Assembly (NCBI GenBank): GCA_902563335.1
Contig: CACEWU010000002.1
Coordinates: forward strand, 1-64,000
Origin: an uncultured Prochlorococcus sp.
Lineage (GTDB): Bacteria; Cyanobacteriota; Cyanobacteriia; PCC-6307; Cyanobiaceae
Direction of reading: 5' to 3'
DNA length: 64,000 nt
The first letter of the stretch is position 1; each line of letters begins with the position of its first letter. Both the position numbers and the translations under genes were made by a program. The notes under the pieces are model-generated. The model was not told where the DNA came from, did no database searches, and saw nothing but the letters and a program-made list of their open reading frames with translations. Shown in pieces: positions 405 to 24,467 of this stretch.

Positions 405-1919
405 TTGTCTGACCTTCGCAATGTACGGCTGGAAAAAGCTAAATCCCTACAAGATCTAGGGAAGTCTCCTTATGCTATTCGGTTTGAACCTAGTCATCAT
501 GCAGCTTCTTTACAAGCTAATCACGTTGATTTAGCTAATGGAGAAGAAAGATCTGAAACTGTTTCAGTGGCTGGCAGGGTTATGTCAAGACGGGTGATGG
601 GGAAATTGGCATTTTTTACTTTGGCTGATGAGACAGGCACTATTCAGCTGTACCTTGAAAAGAGAAGTCTTGAAAAAAATTCTGCAGAGAATGAGCCTCT
701 AGGCGCATTCAAGCAATTAACTGAATTTGTAGATGCAGGTGACTGGATTGGTGTTCAGGGTACTCTTAAAAGAACTGATCGAGGCGAACTTTCGGTCAAG
801 GTTCAGCAATGGGAGATGCTGTCTAAATCTTTACAGCCATTACCAGACAAATGGCATGGTTTGACTGATGTTGAGAAACGTTATCGACAAAGATATCTTG
901 ATTTAATTGTCAATCCTCAATCACGTGAGACTTTTAGGAGAAGGGCAAACTTAGTCAGTTCAATTCGTCGCTTTTTAGATGATCGAGAATTTTTAGAGAT
1001 TGAAACACCTGTCTTGCAGTCAGAAGCTGGTGGAGCAGAGGCTCGACCTTTTATTACTCATCACAACACTCTTGATTTACCACTTTATTTACGTATTGCT
1101 ACTGAACTGCACTTAAAGAGGCTTGTTGTTGGAGGCTTTGAGCGCGTTTATGAACTGGGTCGAATTTTTCGAAATGAGGGAGTAAGTACACGCCATAACC
1201 CTGAATTCACTTCTGTCGAGATATACCAAGCTTTTGCTGATTATAATGACATGATGAATCTTACTGAAGAGTTGATCTCTTCAACTTGTTTGCATACATG
1301 TGGTTCTACAACAATTACTTATCAGGGCATTGAAATTGATTTAACCCCTCCATGGCGTCGAGCAACGATGCATGAACTCGTTAAGGAATTTACTGGGCTT
1401 GATTTCATAAATTCATTTTCTAATCGATCTGAAGCAGAATTAGCTATGCAAGAGGCTGGCATGGAAGTCCCAGCTAAGGCTGATACGGTTGGTCGTCTTT
1501 TGAATGAAGCTTTTGAACAGAGCGTTGAGACAGCTCTTATTCAACCTACGTTTGTGATCGATTATCCAATAGAGATTTCACCTCTTGCTAGAAAGCACCG
1601 ATCTAAAAAAGGAATGGTTGAACGCTTTGAATTGTTTGTTGCGGGTAGGGAGATGGCCAATGCTTTTAGTGAATTGATTGATCCAATTGATCAAAGAGAA
1701 AGATTGGAATCACAGCAGGCTCGACGAGACGCTGGTGATCTTGAGGCGAATTCAGTAGATGAGGATTTTCTGAATGCTTTAGAGGTCGGTATGCCGCCTA
1801 CTGGTGGTCTTGGCATAGGAATTGATCGGTTGGTCATGTTGCTAACAGATAGCCCTTCTATACGTGATGTGATTGCATTCCCTGTACTTAGACCTGAATC
1901 AAGACCATTATCTTCGTAG
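405..1919 (+). CDS. lysS: Lysyl-tRNA synthetase, class II
   Basis: A 504-residue cytoplasmic enzyme that charges tRNA-Lys. An N-terminal OB-fold anticodon-binding domain (about residues 50-150) is followed by the class II catalytic core. Motif 2 is visible as [15 protein letters not shown] and motif 3 as [13 protein letters not shown] near the C-terminus. Length and motif order are normal. The start is TTG; no ATG or GTG lies in frame nearby upstream, and the N-terminus starting [12 protein letters not shown] fits the family. It begins 72 nt after the response regulator on the same strand. Confidence 0.96.
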
Positions 1920-1970
1920 AATTGCACCATCACAGTGGATAATTGATCCAGTGGTAAGGGTCCTCTTCAG

Positions 1971-2225
1971 ATGAGTGGTGAGCGTGTAGGTTTCCGCTTC
2001 AAGCACGCCGATGCGGTGGTTAAGCGCAATCCGCAGGGGCGCTCCCGGCGAGGTTGGGTAATGGAACCTGTCGAACAAACGACTAGTCGTGGCACCAAGA
2101 TGCCTGCTTATCGGATTCGCTGGCGTGATAGTGAACGTCCTGAAATCGTTCTCCAGCACATGCTAATAGCCGATCCAGATCCAACCCCACCTCCTGAGAA
2201 TGTCAGTCTTAATCCATCCTCCTGA
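1971..2225 (+). CDS. Conserved hypothetical protein, 84 aa
   Basis: A basic, compact 84-residue protein encoded 51 nt after lysS on the same strand. The first ~65 residues are rich in Arg, Trp and Gly and read like a small beta-rich domain (KHADAVVKRNPQGRS, PAYRIRWRDSERPE). The tail is Pro/Ser-rich and probably disordered. There is no signal peptide or membrane segment. It looks like a conserved picocyanobacterial small protein, but I cannot name the family. Coding is supported by protein-like composition and operon-like spacing behind lysS. Confidence 0.7.
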   Translation: MSGERVGFRFKHADAVVKRNPQGRSRRGWVMEPVEQTTSRGTKMPAYRIRWRDSERPEIVLQHMLIADPDPTPPPENVSLNPSS

Positions 2226-2259
2226 GTAGGTTAGTTTTAATCATTCAGGCCTATTTTTT
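2221..2259 (+). terminator. Possible intrinsic terminator between convergent genes
   Basis: CCTGAGT (2221-2227) can pair with ATTCAGG (2243-2249) through one wobble, followed by a run of six T at 2254-2259. It overlaps the stop codons of the genes on both sides. The stem is short, so this is weak evidence. Confidence 0.3.
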
Positions 2260-2719
2260 GTCGGAGAAGCTCTAGTTCTTCTTCGGTTTCAAAAGCAGCC
2301 CATTCGTCTGTGTGGCTGCTTATAGGCTCTTTTTTGAGAAGAGATATTTCGTTGATTTGATTATTCATGGCTTTTATCTCCACGCCTAATCGGATTAGTT
2401 TTGACCACAAATTCCTGCCGTGTTCCATTAATTGATTTAGGTGGTAGGAAGCTTTTTTTCCTAAATCACTTCTTCCAGCTTGATTTGCTATCGCTGATTT
2501 TCTTCTCCAATCTTGTATGTCTTCTGCAAGATGTAGCAGTTCTTTGCGAGTTGTCTGGGCTTCAAGCTTTAATTGTTCTTGGCGTAAAATGAGAGAATTA
2601 TAAAGATCTGTTTGGCTTTGATTCTTGAGAAGTTTATCTTGGGAAGGATTTGCTTGTAAGAACTCTGCCAGCCTATTGTCTAGGTTTTCTTCAAGTTTTT
2701 CGAACCAAGATTTTTCCAT
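2237..2719 (-). CDS. Coiled-coil cyanobacterial protein, TIGR04376/hercynine-associated type
   Basis: A 160-residue soluble protein, almost entirely helical and charged, with predicted coiled coil over about residues 1-125 and an acidic C-terminus (EEELELLRQKIG). There is no signal peptide or enzyme motif. It resembles, from memory, the cyanobacterial family TIGR04376, which databases label 'hercynine metabolism protein'; the name is a context label, not a demonstrated activity. It shares a TAATG stop/start overlap with the 74-aa gene before it, so the two are translationally coupled. No egt gene is visible nearby. Confidence 0.6.
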   Translation of the reverse strand: MEKSWFEKLEENLDNRLAEFLQANPSQDKLLKNQSQTDLYNSLILRQEQLKLEAQTTRKELLHLAEDIQDWRRKSAIANQAGRSDLGKKASYHLNQLMEHGRNLWSKLIRLGVEIKAMNNQINEISLLKKEPISSHTDEWAAFETEEELELLRQKIGLND

Positions 2720-2943
2720 TATTTATCCATATTTTTAGGATAGATCTTATTTAGAACATCTTGCAAGGGAATCGTGGCGGCTTCTTTAGAGTTCAGCAAG
2801 GCTTGAGTAAGAGCGGCTACTTTTCTTTCTGTGAGGCCAGTTTTGGTAAGTCGATCAAATGCTTGTCTATATACATGTTCTAGGCTTTTGATCGCTTCTT
2901 CACATTCGACCTGAATGATGAAGCTTTGTCTTTCTTGATTCAT
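2719..2943 (-). CDS. Small protein coupled to the coiled-coil protein
   Basis: A 74-residue, mostly helical soluble protein with several aromatic and charged helices (EEAIKSLEHVYRQAFDRL, ERKVAALTQALLNSKE). It is the first gene of a two-gene unit, and its TAA stop overlaps the next ATG by one base. It resembles the small partner called 'hercynine metabolism small protein' in databases; that name is from memory and describes genomic association only. Possible roles as a partner or adaptor of the coiled-coil protein are inference. Confidence 0.6.
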   Translation of the reverse strand: MNQERQSFIIQVECEEAIKSLEHVYRQAFDRLTKTGLTERKVAALTQALLNSKEAATIPLQDVLNKIYPKNMDK

Positions 2944-3032
2944 TTGTTTCTGTTTAAGCTTGCTGCTGGTTGAGCGTTAGCTAATTGTAAAGAGAATTCT
3001 TTGTTTCTTTTTTTGCGGTTATTAAATTCTTT

Positions 3033-3536
3033 CTAAAAGCGGGCTAGTGCAGATTTCATTTCACGAGTGGCTTCTTTTTTCTTTTCATCTTGCCTCTTGT
3101 CATGGAGTTTTCGGCCTTTCCCTAGCCCAATAGTCAGTTTGATCCATGAACCTTTGAGATGAATGTTTAATGGAATTAATGTCAGCCCTTTTTTGTCTAG
3201 CATCCCTTGCAGCTTGTTGATTTCCCTGCGGTGTGCCAATAGCTTCCTGACTCGAAGGGGATCGTGATTGAAGTAGCTGCTGGCATGGCTGTGTGGCGAA
3301 ATGTGGACGTTGTGGAGTTGAAGCTCACTTTTGCGTATTAGACAAAACCCGTCTCTCAAATTGGCTTTTCCAGCTCGAATAGATTTAACTTCGGTTCCAA
3401 CTAGTTCAATTCCCGTTTCTAAGGTTTCGATGATCTCGTATTGATGCCTGGCGAAACGATTTTCCGCCAGCAAACGATTAGCAGCTTTTCGCGCTAATTC
3501 CTTTGATTTTTTGTTTCCAGCTTTGTTCATCTCCAA
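3033..3536 (-). CDS. smpB: SsrA (tmRNA)-binding protein SmpB
   Basis: SmpB binds tmRNA and delivers it to stalled ribosomes for trans-translation. The conserved core is visible: [35 protein letters not shown], the HISPH segment, and the C-terminal [10 protein letters not shown] stretch, after which the family has its functional basic tail. At 167 residues the length is normal. The start is ATG at 3536, with an alternative ATG two codons in. It is divergent from ruvB, with about 44 nt between start codons. No tmRNA gene is seen in this window. Confidence 0.96.
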
Positions 3537-3580
3537 TTGTCGCTATTCCGACCCTATCCAGAGATCGGTACCCTTCCAAT

Positions 3581-4645
3581 ATGGCTATTTTGTCTTCTCG
3601 GATAGGTAAAGCTGATTTACCTACTTCTCCTCCTTTTGTGAAGCCTAGGGTGATGGATTCTGCACCTTTAGAAGAAGAGGTAACTATACCTAGGGAAGAT
3701 GGGCTGAGGCCAAGAGCTTTCGATGATTACATAGGGCAATCTTCACTAAAACAGGTCCTTGGGATTGCAGTAAAGGCTGCCATAGGTAGAGGAGATCCTT
3801 TAGATCATGTTTTGCTCTATGGCCCACCTGGACTGGGCAAAACAACTATGGCCCTTGTTTTGGCAGCAGAACTTGGTGTCAAATGTCGGATCACGAGTGC
3901 TCCTTCTTTAGAGCGGCCTAGGGATATAGTCGGATTATTAGTGAACTTGCAACCTCGGGAGTTGTTATTTGTTGATGAGATACATCGACTGACCAGAGTT
4001 GCAGAAGAGCTTTTATATCCTGCTATGGAGGATCAACGACTTGATCTAACTGTTGGGAAGGGTAGTACTGCTCGAACTAGGACGTTGGAGCTACCTCCAT
4101 TCACTCTTGTTGGTGCAACAACTAGGGCAGGGGCGCTTAGTTCTCCTTTAAGAGATCGTTTTGGTTTAACTCAGAGGCTTGACTTCTATTGTTTGCAAGA
4201 TCTTCAAGCAATTGTTCGCAGGACTGCTGATCTTCTTACCGTTCCTTTAACTAATAAGGCCTGCATGGAAATTGCCCGACGATGTAGAGGAACTCCAAGG
4301 ATCGCTAATCGCTTGTTAAGACGTGTTCGTGATTTTGCGTCTGTTAAGACAAAAATGACTGTCATTGAGGCTTCGATTGTCAAAGAAGCTCTGGATTTAC
4401 ATCAAGTTGATTCTTCTGGTTTAGATGAAAGTGATAGGCGTTTAATGAAGGTGATTTTTCATAGTTATGGAGGTGGCCCGGTGGGACTGGAAACCCTTGC
4501 AGCTGCTTTAGGAGAAGATCCCTCAACTCTCGAATCTGTGATAGAGCCATTTTTATTACAGATGGGGTTTTTACAAAGGACTCAAAGAGGGAGGATTATT
4601 ACTAGTGCAGGTCGAAAGCATCTCGAATCTATAGAAGTTAAATGA
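3581..4645 (+). CDS. ruvB: Holliday junction branch-migration helicase RuvB
   Basis: The AAA+ motor of the RuvAB complex, 354 residues from the ATG at 3581. Walker A is GPPGLGKTT, Walker B is [10 protein letters not shown], sensor 1 is LVGATTRAG, and the arginine-finger region is LRDRFG. The C-terminal winged helix contains [17 protein letters not shown]. The open frame extends upstream to 3503, but that stretch overlaps smpB and does not match the family, so 3581 is preferred. Its stop overlaps the next start by 4 nt (ATGA), heading a four-gene coupled run. Confidence 0.97.
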
Positions 4646-5448
4646 GTCGTTGGCTAATCACTAAACACCTAAGGCATATCTTTTTGGTGTTCTTGATGTT
4701 CAATTTGCTTATCTTTCAGCCTGAGCTATCACAGGCGCAAGAGTCAATGCAATATTTGTTTGAGCAAGCACTTGTAGCAAGTAAAGAAGGAGATTTATTG
4801 AATGCTTTGTCTCGTTGGGATAAGTTTTTAGATCTTTTCCCTAACGATGCTGCCGCATTAAGTAACCGTGGAAATATACGCCTTGCTTTGGGAGACCCTA
4901 CTGGTGCAGTTTTAGATCAGACAAAAGCAATTGAGCTTTTGCCTTTTGAGGCTGATTCTTATCTAAACAGAGGGATTGCAGAGGAGGCCTTAAAACAATG
5001 GGATGAAGCTGAAAGCGATTATCAATGGGTTATTGATAGGGATCCTGAGGATTCAGCAGCCCTTTATAACCTTGGAAATGTAAAACTTGCTCAAGGTCAA
5101 TGGACGCAGGCTCAAGCCTTTTTTCAAGAAGCTTTTTTAGCGCGACCAGGATTTGTTATGGCTCGGTCAAGTGAATCTTTAGTGAATTATCAGTTAGGAG
5201 ATCTTGATAAAGCTGAATCAGAACTTCGCATTCTTATACGTAAGTATCCGATGTTTGCTGATGCAAGGGCAGCATTGAGTGCTGTTTTATGGAGAAAAGG
5301 CTTAATAGGAGAAGCCGAAAGTAATTGGGCTGCTGTTCTTGGACTAGATAATCGCTATAGCCAAAGTGAATGGTTACTCAATATTCGTCGTTGGCCTCCT
5401 AGGCCTTCACAAGATTTGATGGCTTTTCTTTCGTTAGAGAATCCATGA
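4642..5448 (+). CDS. TPR-repeat protein with signal peptide
   Basis: A 268-residue protein with an N-terminal hydrophobic segment (about residues 12-28) ending in a likely cleavage site near SQAQE, suggesting export to periplasm or thylakoid lumen. From residue ~40 there are at least four tetratricopeptide repeats, recognisable as [37 protein letters not shown] and [21 protein letters not shown] arrays mediate protein contacts, and no catalytic motif is seen. It overlaps ruvB upstream and the M20 hydrolase downstream by ATGA. The specific partner cannot be told from sequence. Confidence 0.85.
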
Positions 5449-6647
5449 CACTTCTCATGAGCTCGATAGACCATCTAAATGAATTCCTTCCAGAACTAAT
5501 TGAATTGCGAAGGCATTTGCATGCACATCCCGAACTCAGTGGGGATGAACATCAGACTGCCGCTTTGGTTGCTGGGGAGTTGCGTAAATATGGTTGGAGT
5601 GTGAAGGAGGCTGTCGGGCGGACAGGAGTTTTAGCTGAGCTTGGTTCGATGAATGGTCCTGTCGTAGGAGTGCGAGTCGATATGGATGCTTTGCCCGTTG
5701 AGGAATTGACGGATCTGGAGTATTCATCCCTTCGAGATGGGGTGATGCATGCTTGTGGCCATGATCTACATACCTGCATTGGCCTTGGCCTGGCAAGGGT
5801 TTTGGCTTTAGAGCAGTCACATTTGTTGGATTTGGGCGTGAGGTTGCTATTTCAGCCAGCAGAAGAAATTGCTCAAGGTGCTCGTTGGATGAGAAATGAT
5901 GGTGCTACTGAGGGGTTAGATGCTCTTTTTGGAGTCCACGTTTCTCCTGACTTGCCTGCTGGTCAAGTTGGGATAAAAAGTGGAATTCTTACTGCTGCTG
6001 CTGGAGAACTGGAGATAGAGATTGTTGGTGAAGGAGGGCATGGAGCTAGACCTCATCAATCCGTTGACGCAATATGGATCTCTGCAAATGTCATTAGTGG
6101 TCTACAAGAGGCGATTAGTCGTCGGTTGGATGCACTTAATCCAGTAGTTGTAAGTTTTGGGCGAATTGAAGGAGGCAGGGCCTTCAATGTGATTGCAGAT
6201 CGAGTCAGACTTTTGGGTACGGTCCGTTGTTTAGATGGAGCATTACATCAGAAATTGCCTCTGTGGTTGGAAGAGACGGTTCAAGCCATTGCTTCAAGCT
6301 TGGGAGGAGTCGCTTTGGTGAAATATCGGTCCATTGCTCCTCCCGTGTATAACGATCCAGGATTGACAAATTTGGTTGAACTTAGTGCTAATGCAATTCT
6401 TGGGAAAGAGAAGGTGCGACGTTTAAATCAACCTTCATTAGGGGCCGAAGATTTTGCAGAACTTTTGCAAGGAGTTCCTGGGACTATGTTTCGTCTTGGT
6501 GTCGCTGGGCCAAAAGGCTGTGCTCCACTCCACAATGGTCAATTTTGCTTGGATGAGTCCAGTCTTGAAGTTGGAATTAAGGTTCTTAACGCATCTATCC
6601 TTAAATGGATTGAAGACCATTCCAAGTTGAGTTGTGATAAGCAATGA
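5445..6647 (+). CDS. M20-family amidohydrolase (IAA-amino acid/hippurate hydrolase type)
   Basis: A 400-residue dinuclear-metal amidohydrolase. Metal and catalytic positions of the M20D group are visible: VDMDALP near residue 80, HACGHDLH at about 102-109, QPAEE at 138-142, GVHVSPDLPAG, and the C-terminal LHNGQF histidine. Relatives cleave N-acyl amino acids such as hippurate or IAA-conjugates; the physiological substrate here is unknown. The start is ATG at 5445, overlapping the TPR gene stop; an in-frame ATG four codons later is an alternative. Cytoplasmic, with no signal peptide. Confidence 0.9.
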   Translation: MTLLMSSIDHLNEFLPELIELRRHLHAHPELSGDEHQTAALVAGELRKYGWSVKEAVGRTGVLAELGSMNGPVVGVRVDMDALPVEELTDLEYSSLRDGVMHACGHDLHTCIGLGLARVLALEQSHLLDLGVRLLFQPAEEIAQGARWMRNDGATEGLDALFGVHVSPDLPAGQVGIKSGILTAAAGELEIEIVGEGGHGARPHQSVDAIWISANVISGLQEAISRRLDALNPVVVSFGRIEGGRAFNVIADRVRLLGTVRCLDGALHQKLPLWLEETVQAIASSLGGVALVKYRSIAPPVYNDPGLTNLVELSANAILGKEKVRRLNQPSLGAEDFAELLQGVPGTMFRLGVAGPKGCAPLHNGQFCLDESSLEVGIKVLNASILKWIEDHSKLSCDKQ

Positions 6648-6862
6648 AACGCTTTGGTAATCCTTTGTTATCTCTGGCAGCACCTTTACTGATTCTTTTG
6701 GCAATTGTGGGAATAATGCAAAGGGATGGAAGTGATCGTTTCAAGGCTTTGCCAGCATTAGTTGTAGGAGCTGGATTGATTCTTAGTGGTGCTTTGGGGC
6801 GAAGTTATCGGCGTAAGCAGCTCCTAATGGCACTTAAGCAAAGTGGTCGGGATAGAAATTGA
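6644..6862 (+). CDS. Small two-helix membrane protein (DUF3188-like)
   Basis: A 72-residue protein with two hydrophobic segments (about residues 8-25 and 37-52) separated by a short polar turn, ending in a strongly basic tail. It overlaps the M20 hydrolase by ATGA and closes the ruvB operon-like run. It resembles the small cyanobacterial DUF3188 family from memory. The function is unknown. Confidence 0.65.
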   Translation: MKRFGNPLLSLAAPLLILLAIVGIMQRDGSDRFKALPALVVGAGLILSGALGRSYRRKQLLMALKQSGRDRN

Positions 6863-6942
6863 TTGATTTTTATAGAATTAATTTGCTTATTTTTTAATCA
6901 TGAAGCTTCCTTCTTGAAAGATAGCTAGCTTTTGAATATCAC

Positions 6943-7030
6943 TAGGGGTGCCAGAGAAGCTTTTGCGTACTGGCTGAGATCACACCCTCTGAACCTGATA
7001 CGGGTTGCGCCGGCGAAGGGAAGTGAAGAA
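6943..7030 (+). promoter_or_regulatory. TPP riboswitch upstream of thiC
   Basis: The THI-box consensus is present in order: GGGGTGCC at 6945, CTGAGAT about 30 nt later, ACCC, the GAACCTGAT core, and CGCCGGCGAAGGGAAG near 7010-7024. It sits 55-60 nt before the thiC ATG, and the downstream segment GAGTGATCTCTGGCC can pair with the riboswitch 3' region. Known biology: binding of thiamine pyrophosphate lowers expression of thiC. Motif order and position make this close to certain; whether control is at transcription or translation is not resolved. Confidence 0.97.
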
Positions 7031-7036
7031 GAGTGA

Positions 7037-8485
<1,449 letters not shown>

Positions 8486-9648: not shown

Positions 9649-11658
9649 TTAAGTTAATAGCTTTTTAGCTTTGTTTACAACATTTTCGACGGTAAATCCA
9701 AACTTCTCCATACAAGTTCCTCCTGGTGCGGATGCGCCAAATCGATTCATTGTCACACTATCGCCATCTAGACCAATGTATTTGTGCCATCCAAATGTTT
9801 CCGCAGCTTCTACTACGAGCCGTTTACGAACTGCATTAGGAAGGACTTGTTGCTTGTATGCATCACTTTGCTCTTCAAATAGCTCTATGCATGGCATTGA
9901 AACCACTCTGATTTTGTGACCTGAATCAGAGAGTTGTTTGCCAGCTTGGACGCAGAGATCAAGTTCACTGCCAGTGCCAATGAGGATTAGATCAGGTGTT
10001 CCATCACAGTCTTCAAGCACATAGCCACCAAGAGCTACTTTCTCAATAGAGGAATTGGCTTGATTTGGCATGCCCTGCCTACTAAGGCATAGAGAACTGG
10101 GACGTTTGCGGTTTTCGATAGCTAATTTGTATGCACCACTTGTTTCATTGCCATCACCTGGACGGAAAACCAACATGTTTGGTATTGCTCTAAGAGAGGG
10201 GATAGTCTCAATAGGCTGGTGAGTTGGACCATCCTCTCCTACACCAATTGAGTCATGCGTTAAGACATAAATAACACCAAGTTCACTTAACGCTGAGAGA
10301 CGCATAGAGCCACGCATGTAATCAGCAAATACCAAGAAGGTTCCGCCGTAGGGAATTAGCCCACTGTTGTGATATGCAATGCCATTAAGAATGGCGGCCA
10401 TGGCATGTTCGCGTACTCCGAAATGCAGATAACGCTTGGCGGGAGTTTCAGGTTGAAAAGAGCCAGTCTCTCCCTTGATATCCGTGTAATTTGAATGTGT
10501 TAAATCTGCTGAACCACCTATTAGCTCAGGAAGATTTGGACCAAGAGCACCTAAGCAAATTTGAGAGTGTTTTCTGGTAGCAAGACCCTTGTCATTGGGT
10601 GTATAGCTTGGTAGACCTTTTCCCCAACCTTGAGGAAGTTCTCCCCGTAACATTCTCTCAAATTCAGATGATTCTGAGGGGTATTTACTTCGATAAGTAT
10701 CTAGGGTTTGATTCCATTCGGCTTCCAGTTTAGCGCCGCGATCAATTGCTTTTCTGTATTGGTCATATGCCTCCTTTGGTACCTCGAAAGGACCATATTC
10801 CCAATTAAGTTGTTTACGAGTAAGGGTTGCTTCTTCTTCTCCTAATGGTGCTCCATGAACCCCAGCTGTATCACTTTTATTAGGAGAGCCATAACCAATT
10901 GTTGTAGATACTTTAATAATTGATGGCTTGTTAGTAATTTTTTTGGCCGCCTCAATTGCCTTGGAAATAGCATTCACATCTGTATTACCTTTCTCTACAT
11001 GTTGAATATGCCAGCCATACGATTCGTAGCGTTTTAGTACATCTTCTGTGAATGAAACATCAGTGCGGCCATCAATTGTGATTTGGTTGTCGTCATACAG
11101 AGCTATGAGCTTGCCTAATTTGAGATGTCCTGCAAGAGAGCAGGCCTCAGAGGCTACACCTTCTTGATTGCATCCATCACCCATGATCACATAGGTGTAG
11201 TGATCAACGATTGTTGCGTCTGGTTTGTTGAATTTTGCAGCTAAGTGTGCTTCAGCTATAGCTAGACCTACTGCATTAGAAATTCCCGCTCCTAGGGGCC
11301 CCGCAGTGACTTCTACACCTGCAGTCTCGAATGTTTCTGGATGACCTGGTGTCCTGGCTCCCCATTGTCGGAATTGTTTGATGTCTTCAATGGTTACAGA
11401 GTCATACCCAGTTAGATGCAGTAACGCATATAGCAGCATGCACCCATGGCCAGCAGAGAGAACAAAACGGTCACGATTGAACCATTTTGGATTTTTTGGG
11501 TTGTGTTGGAGAAATTTATCCCAAAGTGCATAGCCCATTGGGGCACAGCCCATTGGCAGACCAGGATGGCCGCTATTGGATTTATTAACCGCATCGACGG
11601 CGAGCATCCGGATGCTGTTGATGCAGAGCGTGTCGAGAGAAGCGGGCGCGGCGACCAT
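9649..11658 (-). CDS. tktA: Transketolase
   Basis: A 669-residue thiamine-diphosphate enzyme of the Calvin cycle and pentose phosphate pathway. The ThDP motif runs from [13 protein letters not shown] to IALYDDN. Substrate and cofactor histidines lie in [17 protein letters not shown] and [16 protein letters not shown], and the pyrimidine-domain segment [16 protein letters not shown] carries the conserved Glu. The length is full for the family. Expected in the cytosol, using xylulose-5-P, ribose-5-P, sedoheptulose-7-P and related sugars. It stands 51 nt downstream of fabF on the same strand. Confidence 0.98.
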
Positions 11659-19473: not shown

Positions 19474-20472
19474 TTAAAGTAAAAGATCCAAACTTAAAGG
19501 TGTTCCTCTGTTGAAAGTACGGCGGGCAGGTCGACCAAGGAGGTGTTTGTATAAATGGGGAGGAGCGCCATCACCTGGCCGAACAATGCGTATGTTCTCT
19601 GTTGTGAAAGCTTCACCCTCAGCTATATCACGGGCTGCATAAATCGAACGGCGAAATACGAGACTTTTTACTTCTGCTGCTGTAGGGCCATAATTCACTT
19701 GCCCAAGCGCTTGCCATGCCCTTTTGGACTCTTTCACAAGAGACTTTAGTTCCGCAGGCTCAAGGGAAAATGCACTATCTACTCCTCCATCTTCACGCGA
19801 AAGAGTGAAATGTTTTTCAATTACTGTGGCTCCTAATGCGACTGCCCCAACAGCTACTCCGACACCCATGGTGTGGTCTGATAAACCAACTTCGCATTCG
19901 AACAAATCGCGCAAGTTAGGAATGGTGAGAATATTGGAATTTTCTGGCGTAGCTGGATAGGTACTTGTGCATTTAAGAAGCACAAGTTCGGTACAGCCTT
20001 CTTCACGGGCTGTTTTGACGGCTTCTTCTAGCTCAGCAAGGGTAGCCATACCCGTAGAGATGATTAGAGGTTTGCCTGTAGAAGCAGCTTTCGCGATTAG
20101 AGGCAGATGATTATTTTCAAAACTAGCGATTTTGTAAGCAGGAGCGTTCAGGTCTTCCAGAAAATCAACAGCGGTTTCGTCAAATGGTGAGCTAAAGCAG
20201 ATCAGCCCAAGTTCCTTGGCTCGCTCCATAATTGGCTGATGCCATTCCCAAGGCGTGTAGGCCATTTTGTATAGGTCATGTAAGTTCTTGCCTGCCCAGA
20301 GTGAATCTTGATCAGAGATTTCAAAACTTCCTCCACGAATATCAAGTGTGATTGTGTCAGCGGTGTAAGTCTGTAACTTGATTGCATTAGCACCAGACTT
20401 AGCTGCAGCCGCAACAATTTCAAGAGCTCGCTCCAGGCTCTGGTTGTGATTGCCACTCATCTCAGCAATCAC
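19474..20472 (-). CDS. pseI: Pseudaminic acid synthase-like protein (PseI/NeuB family)
   Basis: A TIM-barrel synthase condensing a 2,4-diacetamido hexose with phosphoenolpyruvate to a nonulosonic acid. IAEMSGNHNQSLERALEI, then GANAIKLQTYT, AYKIASFE, TSTYPATPE, VGLSDHT and VIEKHFTL are family landmarks; LHDLYKMAYTPWEWHQPI resembles PseI rather than NeuB. A C-terminal SAF (antifreeze-like) domain begins near residue 270. The coordinates use a GTG start, but homology-like sequence (NISGRAIGKQHSPF) extends in frame to 20517, where ATT stands where ATG is expected. The gene may therefore be poorly expressed or damaged. Confidence 0.85.
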   Translation of the reverse strand: MIAEMSGNHNQSLERALEIVAAAAKSGANAIKLQTYTADTITLDIRGGSFEISDQDSLWAGKNLHDLYKMAYTPWEWHQPIMERAKELGLICFSSPFDETAVDFLEDLNAPAYKIASFENNHLPLIAKAASTGKPLIISTGMATLAELEEAVKTAREEGCTELVLLKCTSTYPATPENSNILTIPNLRDLFECEVGLSDHTMGVGVAVGAVALGATVIEKHFTLSREDGGVDSAFSLEPAELKSLVKESKRAWQALGQVNYGPTAAEVKSLVFRRSIYAARDIAEGEAFTTENIRIVRPGDGAPPHLYKHLLGRPARRTFNRGTPLSLDLLL

Positions 20473-20516
20473 AAATGGTGAGTGTTGTTTGCCGATTGCT
20501 CGGCCAGAGATATTAA

Positions 20517-21295
20517 TTATGTTTTTTCAGGCAAAGGGATCTCGGCCAATTTATCAAAACAGTACTCTTTTTAAATGAAAGGTATCCTTCGTTAGTGATT
20601 TTTGAATTGACTGTCTGCTGAACTTTTTGACCATGAGCACCGAATAATATGTTGTATTTCTGTATAGCTCCATGAAAATATATACACAATTAAAAGTTAG
20701 TTTGTTGTTGAAGTAACTCACATCTACCTTCCCAAACAACTCTCTAAAAGCATTTATAAAAAAAGATTCACCAAGTTCAATCGCAGACTCTACGGTGTTA
20801 GGTATCGGATGAAAGTCTTTAGCAAATTCCACCATCTCGTGTGGAACACAAGGCACGCTAATTACTAATCGACTCAATGTCATCTGCAGATTTTGTGCAA
20901 GTTTGGCAATTACAGCCCTAGTGTTAGAGGTATAGGGTAATGCCGATGAATAATGAGCAAGTGTTTATTCCCGTGATTTATTTAATTAATCGAAAAAATT
21001 CATTATATCTGCAATAAAAAACTCTCTGGTTGTTTCAGTAGCAATATGTTCCCGAAGGGAGTCTATGGATGTTTTGTGGATATCTACACAACTAAGATAT
21101 CCACTAGTTCCAATACATTTATCTATCATAGATAGACTGAGTACCATTGCCGCATGTAAAGTCCAGCACTTTTTCACCAGGCTGGACTGCAAGCCTATGT
21201 TGTAACCATGTTTGAAAGTTTTTATCTTGACATGTTTGATTGATTAATAGCCGTGGGGGCAAAAGTTCAAGAGATTTATCCTTGTTTTTGGTTGT
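20517..21295 (-). pseudogene. SAM-dependent methyltransferase pseudogene, multiply frameshifted
   Basis: Pieces of one class I methyltransferase lie in order in different frames. First, from 21295: LLPPRLLINQT, then AVQPGEKVLDFTCGNGTQ (motif I), stopping at about 21138. Second: CIGTSGYLSCVDIHKTSIDS (motif II), then REFFIADIMNFFD, stopping at 20986. Third: AHYSSALPYTSNTRAVIAKL through FGKVDVSYFNNKLTF and YRNTTYYS, stopping at 20554. Last: CFDKLAEIPLPEKT, ending at 20517. Internal stops and frame changes make it nonfunctional. The final TAA overlaps the former pseI start region. Confidence 0.75.
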
Positions 21296-21384
21296 CTAAA
21301 TCATTTCGCTTAAGTCACGTTAGGAGTAATTGACAATAAACTCATACCGATTGCTTTTTTTAAGAAGAGCGGCTGTTAAACAAG

Positions 21385-23613
21385 CTATTTCGAAACGGGT
21401 GGAATCTTCAAATATTTGATTTGCAGTTGATAGCGCATCCCTGCAAGATCAAAGAATGCGGGGTATCGCCTGTGATCCGTCACTCGGAGAAGATTGAATT
21501 GATCCTCGATGGACAGAGCTGGATCTAGTGCTGAATCAATTGAGCTTCTGCGGGGATAGTAGGTAGATTCTCCTTGCTGTGCCATCGCACCTTGTATCAC
21601 AGTTGAATAACAATCAAACCATTGCAAGCACAATTTGATAGTTGCTTTTTGCTGAAGTTTGCGCCATTGATCAATAAGTTCTGTCCCGTTTAGGTTGATA
21701 ACTTCTTGTAGATAAATTGGCCCTGCATCTATTTCAGATGTGGCTTCAAATAATGTGATCGGGATTTCATTAGCGCCCTCTAGTATTTGCCATGTCATAG
21801 GACTCCACCCTTGTCCTGCAGGTAGAGCACTTTCATGTACAACGAGATTATGGCGATGCAATTTGAGCTGATCTGGGTTAAGTAGATGACCGCAGCTAAG
21901 CAAGAGACATATGTCTGCTTTGGCAAGTTGATTTGGATCATGAATCCAGCGCAGTGAGTGTCCACGATGGAGAAGGGCTTGAATTAGGCCGATCAGATGC
22001 TCGTTTAGCCAACTGCCTTTATCACTAAGCAAAGTGACTCTGGAAGGTCCTAATGAGGGAGGACTGAGTTTTGAGTGTTTATGCGAAACCTTCTCAATAG
22101 GATTTGTTTTTGGAAGGTTTGAGTTTCTTTTTTCGCTGAGAAAGATCACATCAGAACCCCAAGTGCACTCTATTTTTTTCAATGTCTTTCTGAAGATTTG
22201 TTCGGTTATCTCTAGATTGGAAGCTGTCGGATCTAGTGAGATATCAATAGAGGCAGTGTGGTTGTTTATGGACCGGTCAAGGTGGACTTGGCCTAAAGGG
22301 CAACCATTGCCATCCATAACGATCCAGTGCAGTCTTCTTTCGCTGTTAGGTTCAGCGGTCAACGGAACCTTATGTTTTTTGGGTTTGATTGATTCAGTTA
22401 AATTTTTACTGATTAGTTCGCTTTGATAGTTGTTCCAACGTTTTAACAATGGTTGATCATTAGTTTGTAAAGGTCGCAAATGAATTGTTTTACTGCAGCC
22501 AAGCATTGCTGTGGCAAGTCGCTGACTGCCGTAGCCATCAGTTAATTCCTGGCCAGAAGCCAGGGGTTCTTTTTTTTGAAGGATTTGAAGTAACGCTTGC
22601 TTGATTTGTTCGGCCTTGATTTCAGAGTTTGTTTGCAGTAGTTGGATGTGTCCATGCTCTTTTAGGCCCTGAGCAATTGGGATTTGATTGGCCGCAATTG
22701 GCACCACTAGGCTTGGTAAACCTAAGCAGGCTCTCTCCCAAGTAGTAGTACCACCCGCACCTATAGCGAAATCTGCTCGGGCGATCAATCCTGCCAAGGT
22801 TGGTAAAGATGTATGCAAAGAAGCTTTATCAAACTCAGCCATCAAAGTTTTCACCGCTGCCAAATGCGGACTTTGCGTGCCTAGCACCACATCAACGGCA
22901 AGGTGACTGAGCTCAGGCGTCATCAAGGCAGCTAGTGCAGTAGCTGTGAGGTTGTTGGGATCAACGCCGCCGAAGAAAACTAGTACTCGTTGCAGTGTTG
23001 TACGTGTTGGTACCAATGGATGCAACTTTGCATATTCCGGCCCTAATAGAGCGAAGTGAGGACCAAGTAATTGCCTGCAATGTTTAGGAACTAGATTTGT
23101 ATAACGATTTTGAGTGGCTTCCCCAAAGAAGTTTTGGTCGAGCAAAATATCTGCTTGATGGGGTCTATCAGCGAGATCGTCAATTGATAGCAATCTGGGT
23201 CGAGTGGAGAGAGTTGTAGTTAGGCCTTCAATAACTGTTTGGTGCCAGCTTGCATCTAGACCGTAGTGATCCACTACTAACCAATCACAACTATCTATCC
23301 CGGACTGCTTTAGACCTGCCAGGGTTTGTATCGCATCCAGTTGTTGAGTACAACCTAGCCAGTTGGCATATAGATCTCGGCCTTCTAATGATTGTTGCTG
23401 TTCACTTTTGAACGTGGGATGCTTCTGATGCGAAAGGCCTATTACGGTAAATTCTCGCTTCAGCACACTGATTAGATCCCCTGGTTGATTGCGGCAGATA
23501 AGTATTATTTCCGCGCCTCGTTGAGATAGCTCTCGTGCGAGTGTGCGACAGCGCATCACATGTCCACTACCAATCGCAAGGGAGGCGTCACAACGAAAGA
23601 GAATGCGAGTCAT
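21385..23613 (-). CDS. Fusion: PseG-like nucleotide-sugar hydrolase + GNAT-like domain + formyltransferase
   Basis: A 742-residue three-part protein. Residues 1-~373 match PseG, the UDP-sugar hydrolase of pseudaminate synthesis, with catalytic-type His18 in IGSGHVMRC, FFGGVDP and AIGAGGTTTWERACLGLPS. Residues ~375-495 resemble a PseH-type GNAT domain (IHLRPLQTNDQPLLKRWNN; GQVHLDRSI), but the usual Arg/Gln-x2-Gly-x-Gly acetyl-CoA loop is not evident. Residues ~525-735 are a formyltransferase: NLVVHESALPAGQGWSP with His593, SEIDAGPIYL with Asp629, and the C-terminal RVTDHRRYPAFFDLAGMRY. ATG 23613 overlaps the deacetylase stop by ATGA. The substrate is inferred. Confidence 0.88.
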   Translation of the reverse strand: MTRILFRCDASLAIGSGHVMRCRTLARELSQRGAEIILICRNQPGDLISVLKREFTVIGLSHQKHPTFKSEQQQSLEGRDLYANWLGCTQQLDAIQTLAGLKQSGIDSCDWLVVDHYGLDASWHQTVIEGLTTTLSTRPRLLSIDDLADRPHQADILLDQNFFGEATQNRYTNLVPKHCRQLLGPHFALLGPEYAKLHPLVPTRTTLQRVLVFFGGVDPNNLTATALAALMTPELSHLAVDVVLGTQSPHLAAVKTLMAEFDKASLHTSLPTLAGLIARADFAIGAGGTTTWERACLGLPSLVVPIAANQIPIAQGLKEHGHIQLLQTNSEIKAEQIKQALLQILQKKEPLASGQELTDGYGSQRLATAMLGCSKTIHLRPLQTNDQPLLKRWNNYQSELISKNLTESIKPKKHKVPLTAEPNSERRLHWIVMDGNGCPLGQVHLDRSINNHTASIDISLDPTASNLEITEQIFRKTLKKIECTWGSDVIFLSEKRNSNLPKTNPIEKVSHKHSKLSPPSLGPSRVTLLSDKGSWLNEHLIGLIQALLHRGHSLRWIHDPNQLAKADICLLLSCGHLLNPDQLKLHRHNLVVHESALPAGQGWSPMTWQILEGANEIPITLFEATSEIDAGPIYLQEVINLNGTELIDQWRKLQQKATIKLCLQWFDCYSTVIQGAMAQQGESTYYPRRSSIDSALDPALSIEDQFNLLRVTDHRRYPAFFDLAGMRYQLQIKYLKIPPVSK

Positions 23614-24314
23614 ACGATGTTTCGCAATAGACAAAACGCCTCAGCAGTCTCAACACCTACTTGAGCTCCCCGCCAGTGGGCAAGATGTCCCACTGCCTCT
23701 ATTGATCGGGCGTGGGGCCAGCGGCGCATTTCGCTGTTATAGGCATTAAGGGCTTCTAGTTTGCGATCCCACTGGGCCGAGATCTCTACGAACCAATTGG
23801 GATGGAAAGCCGGTGCAGAATAAGGCGGCTGCCATTCTGTGCTACTGCAAACTTCGTAACTCAGTAAACGCTTGACGCAATTTCCCGGGGTCGCTCTGCA
23901 GGCGGTTACAGCTGCTTCATGAAGACGGCGATGGTCGATGTTTACATCACCAGAGTGATGTACATAAACCACTTGGGGTTTATGAAGTTCAATCTTGGCT
24001 TCTATTTGTTTAATAACGTCAAGGCGATCAATTGAGTCAAGTCGATTATCGGGTAAATCAAGCAGTTCAACACCAGCTGCGCCAAGAATTACACTTGCTT
24101 TTTGAGCAGATTGAGTCAGCTTTGAAAGCTCTTCAGATGCTTCATCGCGATTACGATGTTGCTGACGAGAGGTAGCTCCTTCGGCAACAATTGTTATCCA
24201 TACTTCATCTCCATTATCTGCATGGCGGGCAATGGTGCCTCCGCAACCAAGCACTTCATCGTCAGGATGGGCGGCAATTACGAGAACCTGCTGAGTTAAT
24301 GAAGTGGATGTCAT
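23610..24314 (-). CDS. PIG-L/LmbE-family N-deacetylase
   Basis: A zinc-dependent deacetylase of 234 residues from the ATG at 24314. The metal motif AAHPDDEVLGCGGT is near the N-terminus, with the third ligand region HHSGDVNIDHRRLH at about residue 120. Relatives remove N-acetyl from sugars such as GlcNAc conjugates. The frame is open to 24398, but the extension is not family-like. The stop overlaps the start of the PseG/formyltransferase fusion, so the two are translationally coupled; deacetylation followed by formylation of a sugar amine is a plausible inference. Confidence 0.9.
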   Translation of the reverse strand: MTSTSLTQQVLVIAAHPDDEVLGCGGTIARHADNGDEVWITIVAEGATSRQQHRNRDEASEELSKLTQSAQKASVILGAAGVELLDLPDNRLDSIDRLDVIKQIEAKIELHKPQVVYVHHSGDVNIDHRRLHEAAVTACRATPGNCVKRLLSYEVCSSTEWQPPYSAPAFHPNWFVEISAQWDRKLEALNAYNSEMRRWPHARSIEAVGHLAHWRGAQVGVETAEAFCLLRNIV

Positions 24315-24467
24315 TTGAAGAAGGGAGTTTGAAGCAATCAGCAATAGTTGTTTTTCTAGCTGTGGTCTTTTTTGTAGATGTGGGCCTAAGTAGATCAACT
24401 GTGGCCGTTGATTTTTAATGAATTGCTACGTAAGCGATTGCATATTGCATGTAATGGTTGGTTTGGC

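Follow-up and report, generated by a model that had tools for sequence, protein, structure and literature searches.

A Prochlorococcus PseG-formyltransferase fusion that contains a decayed GNAT domain and may serve the synthesis of an N-formyl pseudaminic acid

In an uncultured Prochlorococcus, a single gene on the minus strand (21385..23613; start codon ATG at 23613, last base of the stop codon at 21385; 742 codons plus stop) encodes a protein, P0001, in which a PseG hydrolase, the remnant of a GNAT acetyltransferase and a formyltransferase domain (FT1) are joined. The gene lies in a window of 64,000 nucleotides, which is the whole stretch of DNA that was analysed. We consider it fairly probable that P0001 is an enzyme with two activities, in which FT1 formylates the product of PseC and PseG removes UDP, that the GNAT part is a fossil of a PseH-like domain, and that the final product is Pse5Ac7Fo. 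In the standard pathway, as laid out in a Geobacillus study, PseC generates UDP-4-amino-4,6-dideoxy-beta-L-AltNAc, PseH acetylates N4, PseG cleaves off UDP, and PseI forms pseudaminic acid (PMC5109656). In the proposed variant, FT1 would use 10-formyl-tetrahydrofolate to formylate the 4-amine of this PseC product, the attached PseG domain would then cleave off UDP, possibly with channelling, and PseI would condense the sugar with PEP, so that the N-formyl group would be found at C7. An ancestral PseH-like GNAT would once have carried out the acylation and would since have lost its acetyl-CoA site.

A three-domain fusion at exactly this position had been recognized in a preliminary description of the DNA, and its three domain assignments (PseG, GNAT-derived, formyltransferase) are supported by HMM as well as fold matches. 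Structure prediction, which had been proposed there as a check, recovered PseG, GNAT and formyltransferase folds as PDB matches. In the AlphaFold2 model of P0001 (26 rows, mean pLDDT 84), the PseG part is followed by an incomplete alpha/beta domain at residues 378-492, a low-confidence linker at residues 494-518 (22060..22134, minus strand; pLDDT under 50), and the formyltransferase from residue 525 onward. The reading frame has no internal stop, and a search for the same arrangement elsewhere detected PseG-(GNAT)-FT1 fusions in separate assemblies (L034/G199, L035 and G185). Due to this recurrence, an assembly error confined to the Prochlorococcus genome is ruled out, and so is chance or a frame artefact, given the 742 open codons and the fusions in other assemblies.

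Judged by its sequence, the N-terminal domain (22498..23613, minus strand; residues 1-372) is a PseG, with a predicted function as UDP-sugar hydrolase. Residues 3-315 match TIGR03590 with an E-value of 7.8e-86 and 288.1 bits, which is above the equivalog cut-off of 153.55 bits and covers the full-length domain, and the glycine-rich N-terminal motif with its histidine (IGSGHVMRC, His18) is common to P0001 and the PseG structures 3hbm and 3hbn. Campylobacter jejuni PseG (3hbn) is the best structural match (VIA-align Z 28.9, rmsd 2.6, 277 residues), whereby the alignment of the whole P0001 model covered the PseG part only. What distinguishes P0001 from these PseG proteins are the appended GNAT remnant and formyltransferase.

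FT1 (21388..22047, minus strand; about residues 523-742) is a predicted sugar N-formyltransferase, most plausibly dependent on 10-formyl-tetrahydrofolate. Residues 561-643 match Formyl_trans_N (PF00551) with an E-value of 2e-9 and 37.9 bits (cut-off 26.1 bits), the motif NLVVHESALPAG...SEIDAGPIYL begins at residue 589, and ArnA, VioF and WbkC are the fold matches in the PDB. The catalytic histidine and aspartate of the N-x-H...D triad (H593 and D629) are invariant in 12/12 FT1 sequences, and they are likewise kept in ArnA, VioF, WbkC and PseJ, which belong to the same family. FT1 differs from ArnA, VioF and WbkC in that a valine (V591) takes the place of the canonical catalytic asparagine (Asn102 in ArnA) two residues before the histidine. 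This weighs against the proposed formylation, although an asparagine four residues before the histidine (N589 in P0001) is invariant in all 12 FT1 sequences. With the FT1 profile, the best PDB match was 1zgh (67 bits), next to ArnA at 61 bits and PseJ, an enzyme of pseudaminic acid synthesis, at about 31 bits, i.e. with remote sequence similarity only. PseJ is a formyltransferase with solved structures (PDB 6ci2, 6ci4). The best match, 1zgh, leads to a second, 1zgh-like formyltransferase, FT2, which in relatives is encoded between pseG and pseI. FT2 also has no canonical asparagine, but it is a family separate from FT1, as 1zgh scores 301 bits with the FT2 profile versus 67 bits with that of FT1.

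The middle region of P0001 (22129..22485, minus strand; about residues 377-495) has no Pfam match of its own, whereas its counterparts in intact PseG-GNAT homologues match Acetyltransf_3 at 44-60 bits. A model that was trained on intact GNATs only scored the P0001 region at 57.9 bits versus a shuffled maximum of 9.1 and the L035 region at 112.5 bits versus 1.9; it gave no score for G185, where the GNAT part has changed beyond recognition. When the P0001 region was modelled alone and template-free, its PDB matches were GNAT folds, with 3eo4 as the best (Foldseek E 5.5e-6, probability 1.00) and SpeG also among them; as the underlying alignment included intact GNATs, this fold match should not be counted as evidence independent of the sequence. 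An origin of the region outside the GNATs is ruled out by the score above the shuffled maximum and the fold matches. The acetyl-CoA loop (A/V)RGxGLA of most relatives reads ASNLEIT at residues 464-470 of P0001, which deviates from the pyrophosphate-loop pattern R/Q-x-x-G-x-G/A and bears out the earlier remark that such a loop is missing. Also the C-terminal half of the GNAT is absent, including the N-x-x-S-x-x-x-F motif. TIGR03585 (PseH) did not match P0001, and with this model even the intact relatives reach only 20-27 bits at a cut-off of 93. On a topology fixed from PseG, the terminal branch of P0001 measures 2.64 for GNAT versus 0.51 for PseG, a ratio of 5.2, as compared to 3.3 for L035 and 0.5-1.7 for the other ten proteins. 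In a separate comparison, the corresponding FT1/PseG ratio of P0001 is 0.99. GNAT alone is thus accelerated and FT1 keeps pace with PseG, which indicates that PseG and FT1 are constrained and GNAT is not. From these sequence data, we regard the middle part of P0001 as a dead GNAT remnant that derives from a PseH-like domain, and not as a third working domain.

The relatives form a natural series of GNAT alone, GNAT with FT1, dead GNAT with FT1, and FT1 alone, which makes an acetyl-to-formyl switch directly testable. There is no FT1 in G278, G004, G222 and G119. In G192, G264 and G291, an intact PseG-GNAT adjoins a broken FT1 (internal TAA, frameshift, 39-residue remnant), which is the mirror image of P0001. 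An intact GNAT co-occurs with FT1 as a full fusion in G199, as PseG-GNAT plus separate FT1 in G561, G511 and the Azoarcus locus L038, and also in L041, and FT1 therefore need not always replace PseH. At the other end of the series, PseG is joined straight to FT1 without GNAT in L037 (Legionellaceae), L042 (Verrucomicrobiaceae) and G320. L037 and L042 also encode PseB, PseC, PseF and PseI, and among the ORFs of their stretches there is no GNAT/PseH homologue. Such otherwise complete clusters with FT1 in place of PseH argue for a formylation of N4, which is the N7 of pseudaminic acid. Unlinked GNATs exist in some clusters, including that of G185 (L048 4456-4992), and were not found in L037 or L042; the one in the G185 cluster could be a PseH substitute that acetylates instead. 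In the hand-compiled presence/absence counts of 27 loci, there is a weak tendency for GNAT and FT1 not to occur together (Fisher p 0.057, relatedness ignored). Most likely, FT1 replaced PseH. That the formyltransferase took over the acylation role had already been suspected, and the GNAT-specific acceleration, the FT1 constraint and the GNAT-less clusters elsewhere back this idea. The accompanying proposal of a coupling between hydrolysis and N-acylation would apply to PseG with FT1 but not to the GNAT, which is a decayed remnant; we infer that the fusion couples two consecutive steps, formylation and UDP removal.

A single origin of the picocyanobacterial fusions is ruled out by the PseG tree, as a topology with the PseGs of P0001, G199, L035 and G185 forced into one clade is worse by 45.9 log units (AU p 0.0006, a value to be taken with caution in view of long branches), and G199 falls into a group with G032 and G264, which are both unfused. 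As the fused PseGs are not a single clade, the joining of PseG and FT1 recurred or was repeatedly lost. One may tentatively go further and envisage that PseG repeatedly captured a formyltransferase class with shifted asparagine (N-x-x-x-H), and that the N-acyl pattern of pseudaminic acids is set by swappable modules, in which the C7 nitrogen is served by GNAT or FT1 and that of C5 by PIG-L plus FT2; P0001 would then have been caught after an acetyl-to-formyl switch. The contig of L035 is labelled Crocinitomicaceae, and its pse cluster resembles picocyanobacterial ones; it may be mis-binned or transferred.

Which other functions of the locus can be envisaged? Upstream of the fusion lies a gene for a PIG-L family N-deacetylase (23610..24398, minus strand; PF02585 97.7 bits, conserved part about 23613-24308), whose stop codon overlaps the fusion ATG by 4 bases (ATGA), and PIG-L adjoins pseG in most relatives. 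One could therefore imagine that PIG-L removes the 2-N-acetyl group and that FT1 formylates the resulting amine, which would lead to a 5-N-formyl pseudaminic acid. This would agree with the joint occurrence of GNAT and FT1 in five loci, as expected for two different sites, and 5-N-formyl-legionaminic acid is indeed known from Halorubrum (PMC6137143). Nevertheless, we hold this alternative to be improbable, as L037, L042 and L035 have FT1 without PIG-L within the stretch, as no known acyltransferase would be left for the 4-amine in the window, L037 and L042, and as it is FT2, not FT1, that is tied to PIG-L: among the 27 pse loci, FT2 was seen only together with PIG-L (10/10; L047, L049, L051, L053, L055, L038, L041, L094, L099, L103; Fisher p 0.009, relatedness ignored), which suggests that FT2 and PIG-L form a deacetylate-then-formylate pair. 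Outside this set, the IMG/VR contig L104 carries FT2 and FT1 with no PIG-L within the stretch. In the Prochlorococcus genome, no convincing FT2 was found, the only matches being the fusion itself and a weak 31-bit match at C5:37006-37338; PIG-L is co-translated with the fusion nonetheless.

The locus might also be a relic, with an open fusion gene whose pathway is gone, so that neither activity matters. A methyltransferase pseudogene lies between the fusion and PseI (20473..21384, minus strand) and shows several frame breaks in comparison to its intact homologue in L052, which may point to a decay of the locus. Pseudaminic acid synthase PseI (19474..20472, minus strand, putative start; TIGR03586 490 bits, cut-off 340) is present, with homology that continues upstream (20472-20517) of GTG 20472, the first codon commonly used as a start, where relatives start at an ATG; PseB, PseC and PseF did not score above cut-off in the Prochlorococcus genome. 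This and the pseudogene also weigh against the pathway proposed above. However, this genome is 65% complete, and the three genes are clustered together in L047, L048 and L049. As moreover the fusion gene has remained open over its entire length and the PseG and FT1 branches of P0001 are equal and of moderate length, with GNAT alone being accelerated, we regard a relic as unlikely. The intact methyltransferase homologue (L052 of G291, 9773-10759) follows the FT1 remnant. Finally, the protein could be trifunctional, with a GNAT remnant that has kept a role in binding, as a scaffold or as a weak acetyltransferase. In favour of this reading are the fair confidence with which the N-terminal half of the fold is modelled and the intact GNAT in the G199 fusion, but it is very improbable with the acetyl-CoA loop and the C-terminal half gone, the strong rate acceleration, and a GNAT region that can no longer be recognised in G185 and is missing from L037, L042 and G320.

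Nonulosonic acids are cell-surface sugars, and swaps of their N-acyl groups alter the recognition by partners and phages. The two-activity enzyme proposed here suggests that in this lineage the acetylation of a sialic-acid-like sugar gave way to its formylation, and an N-formyl pseudaminic acid is thereby predicted from sequence for picocyanobacteria. The joining of PseG and PseH as such, which had been thought unusual, is not: PseG-PseH chimeras are common among the relatives of P0001, and one has been described in Aeromonas caviae Sch3N (Tabei et al. 2009, as cited in PMC7874193). Both proteins combine hydrolase and GNAT in one chain, but no formyltransferase is reported for the A. caviae chimera, and its GNAT is presumably active, whereas P0001 has a formyltransferase and a decayed GNAT. 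Formyltransferase genes occur in Geobacillus flagellin glycosylation islands, and the respective paper, the only one found that deals with both PseG and a formyltransferase, describes no such fusion in its accessible part (PMC5109656). In a literature search that had most subscription journals outside its coverage, we found neither a description of a PseG-formyltransferase fusion or of a decayed GNAT between the two domains, nor a paper that names N-formyl pseudaminic acid, be it for picocyanobacteria or for other organisms. FT1 had no match in plasmid records. The viral collection IMG/VR contains ten FT1 relatives, one of which, L103, belongs to a full pse cluster (924-8069) with separate PseG and FT1 genes that comprises PseB, PseC, PseF, PseG, FT1, FT2, PseI and PIG-L.
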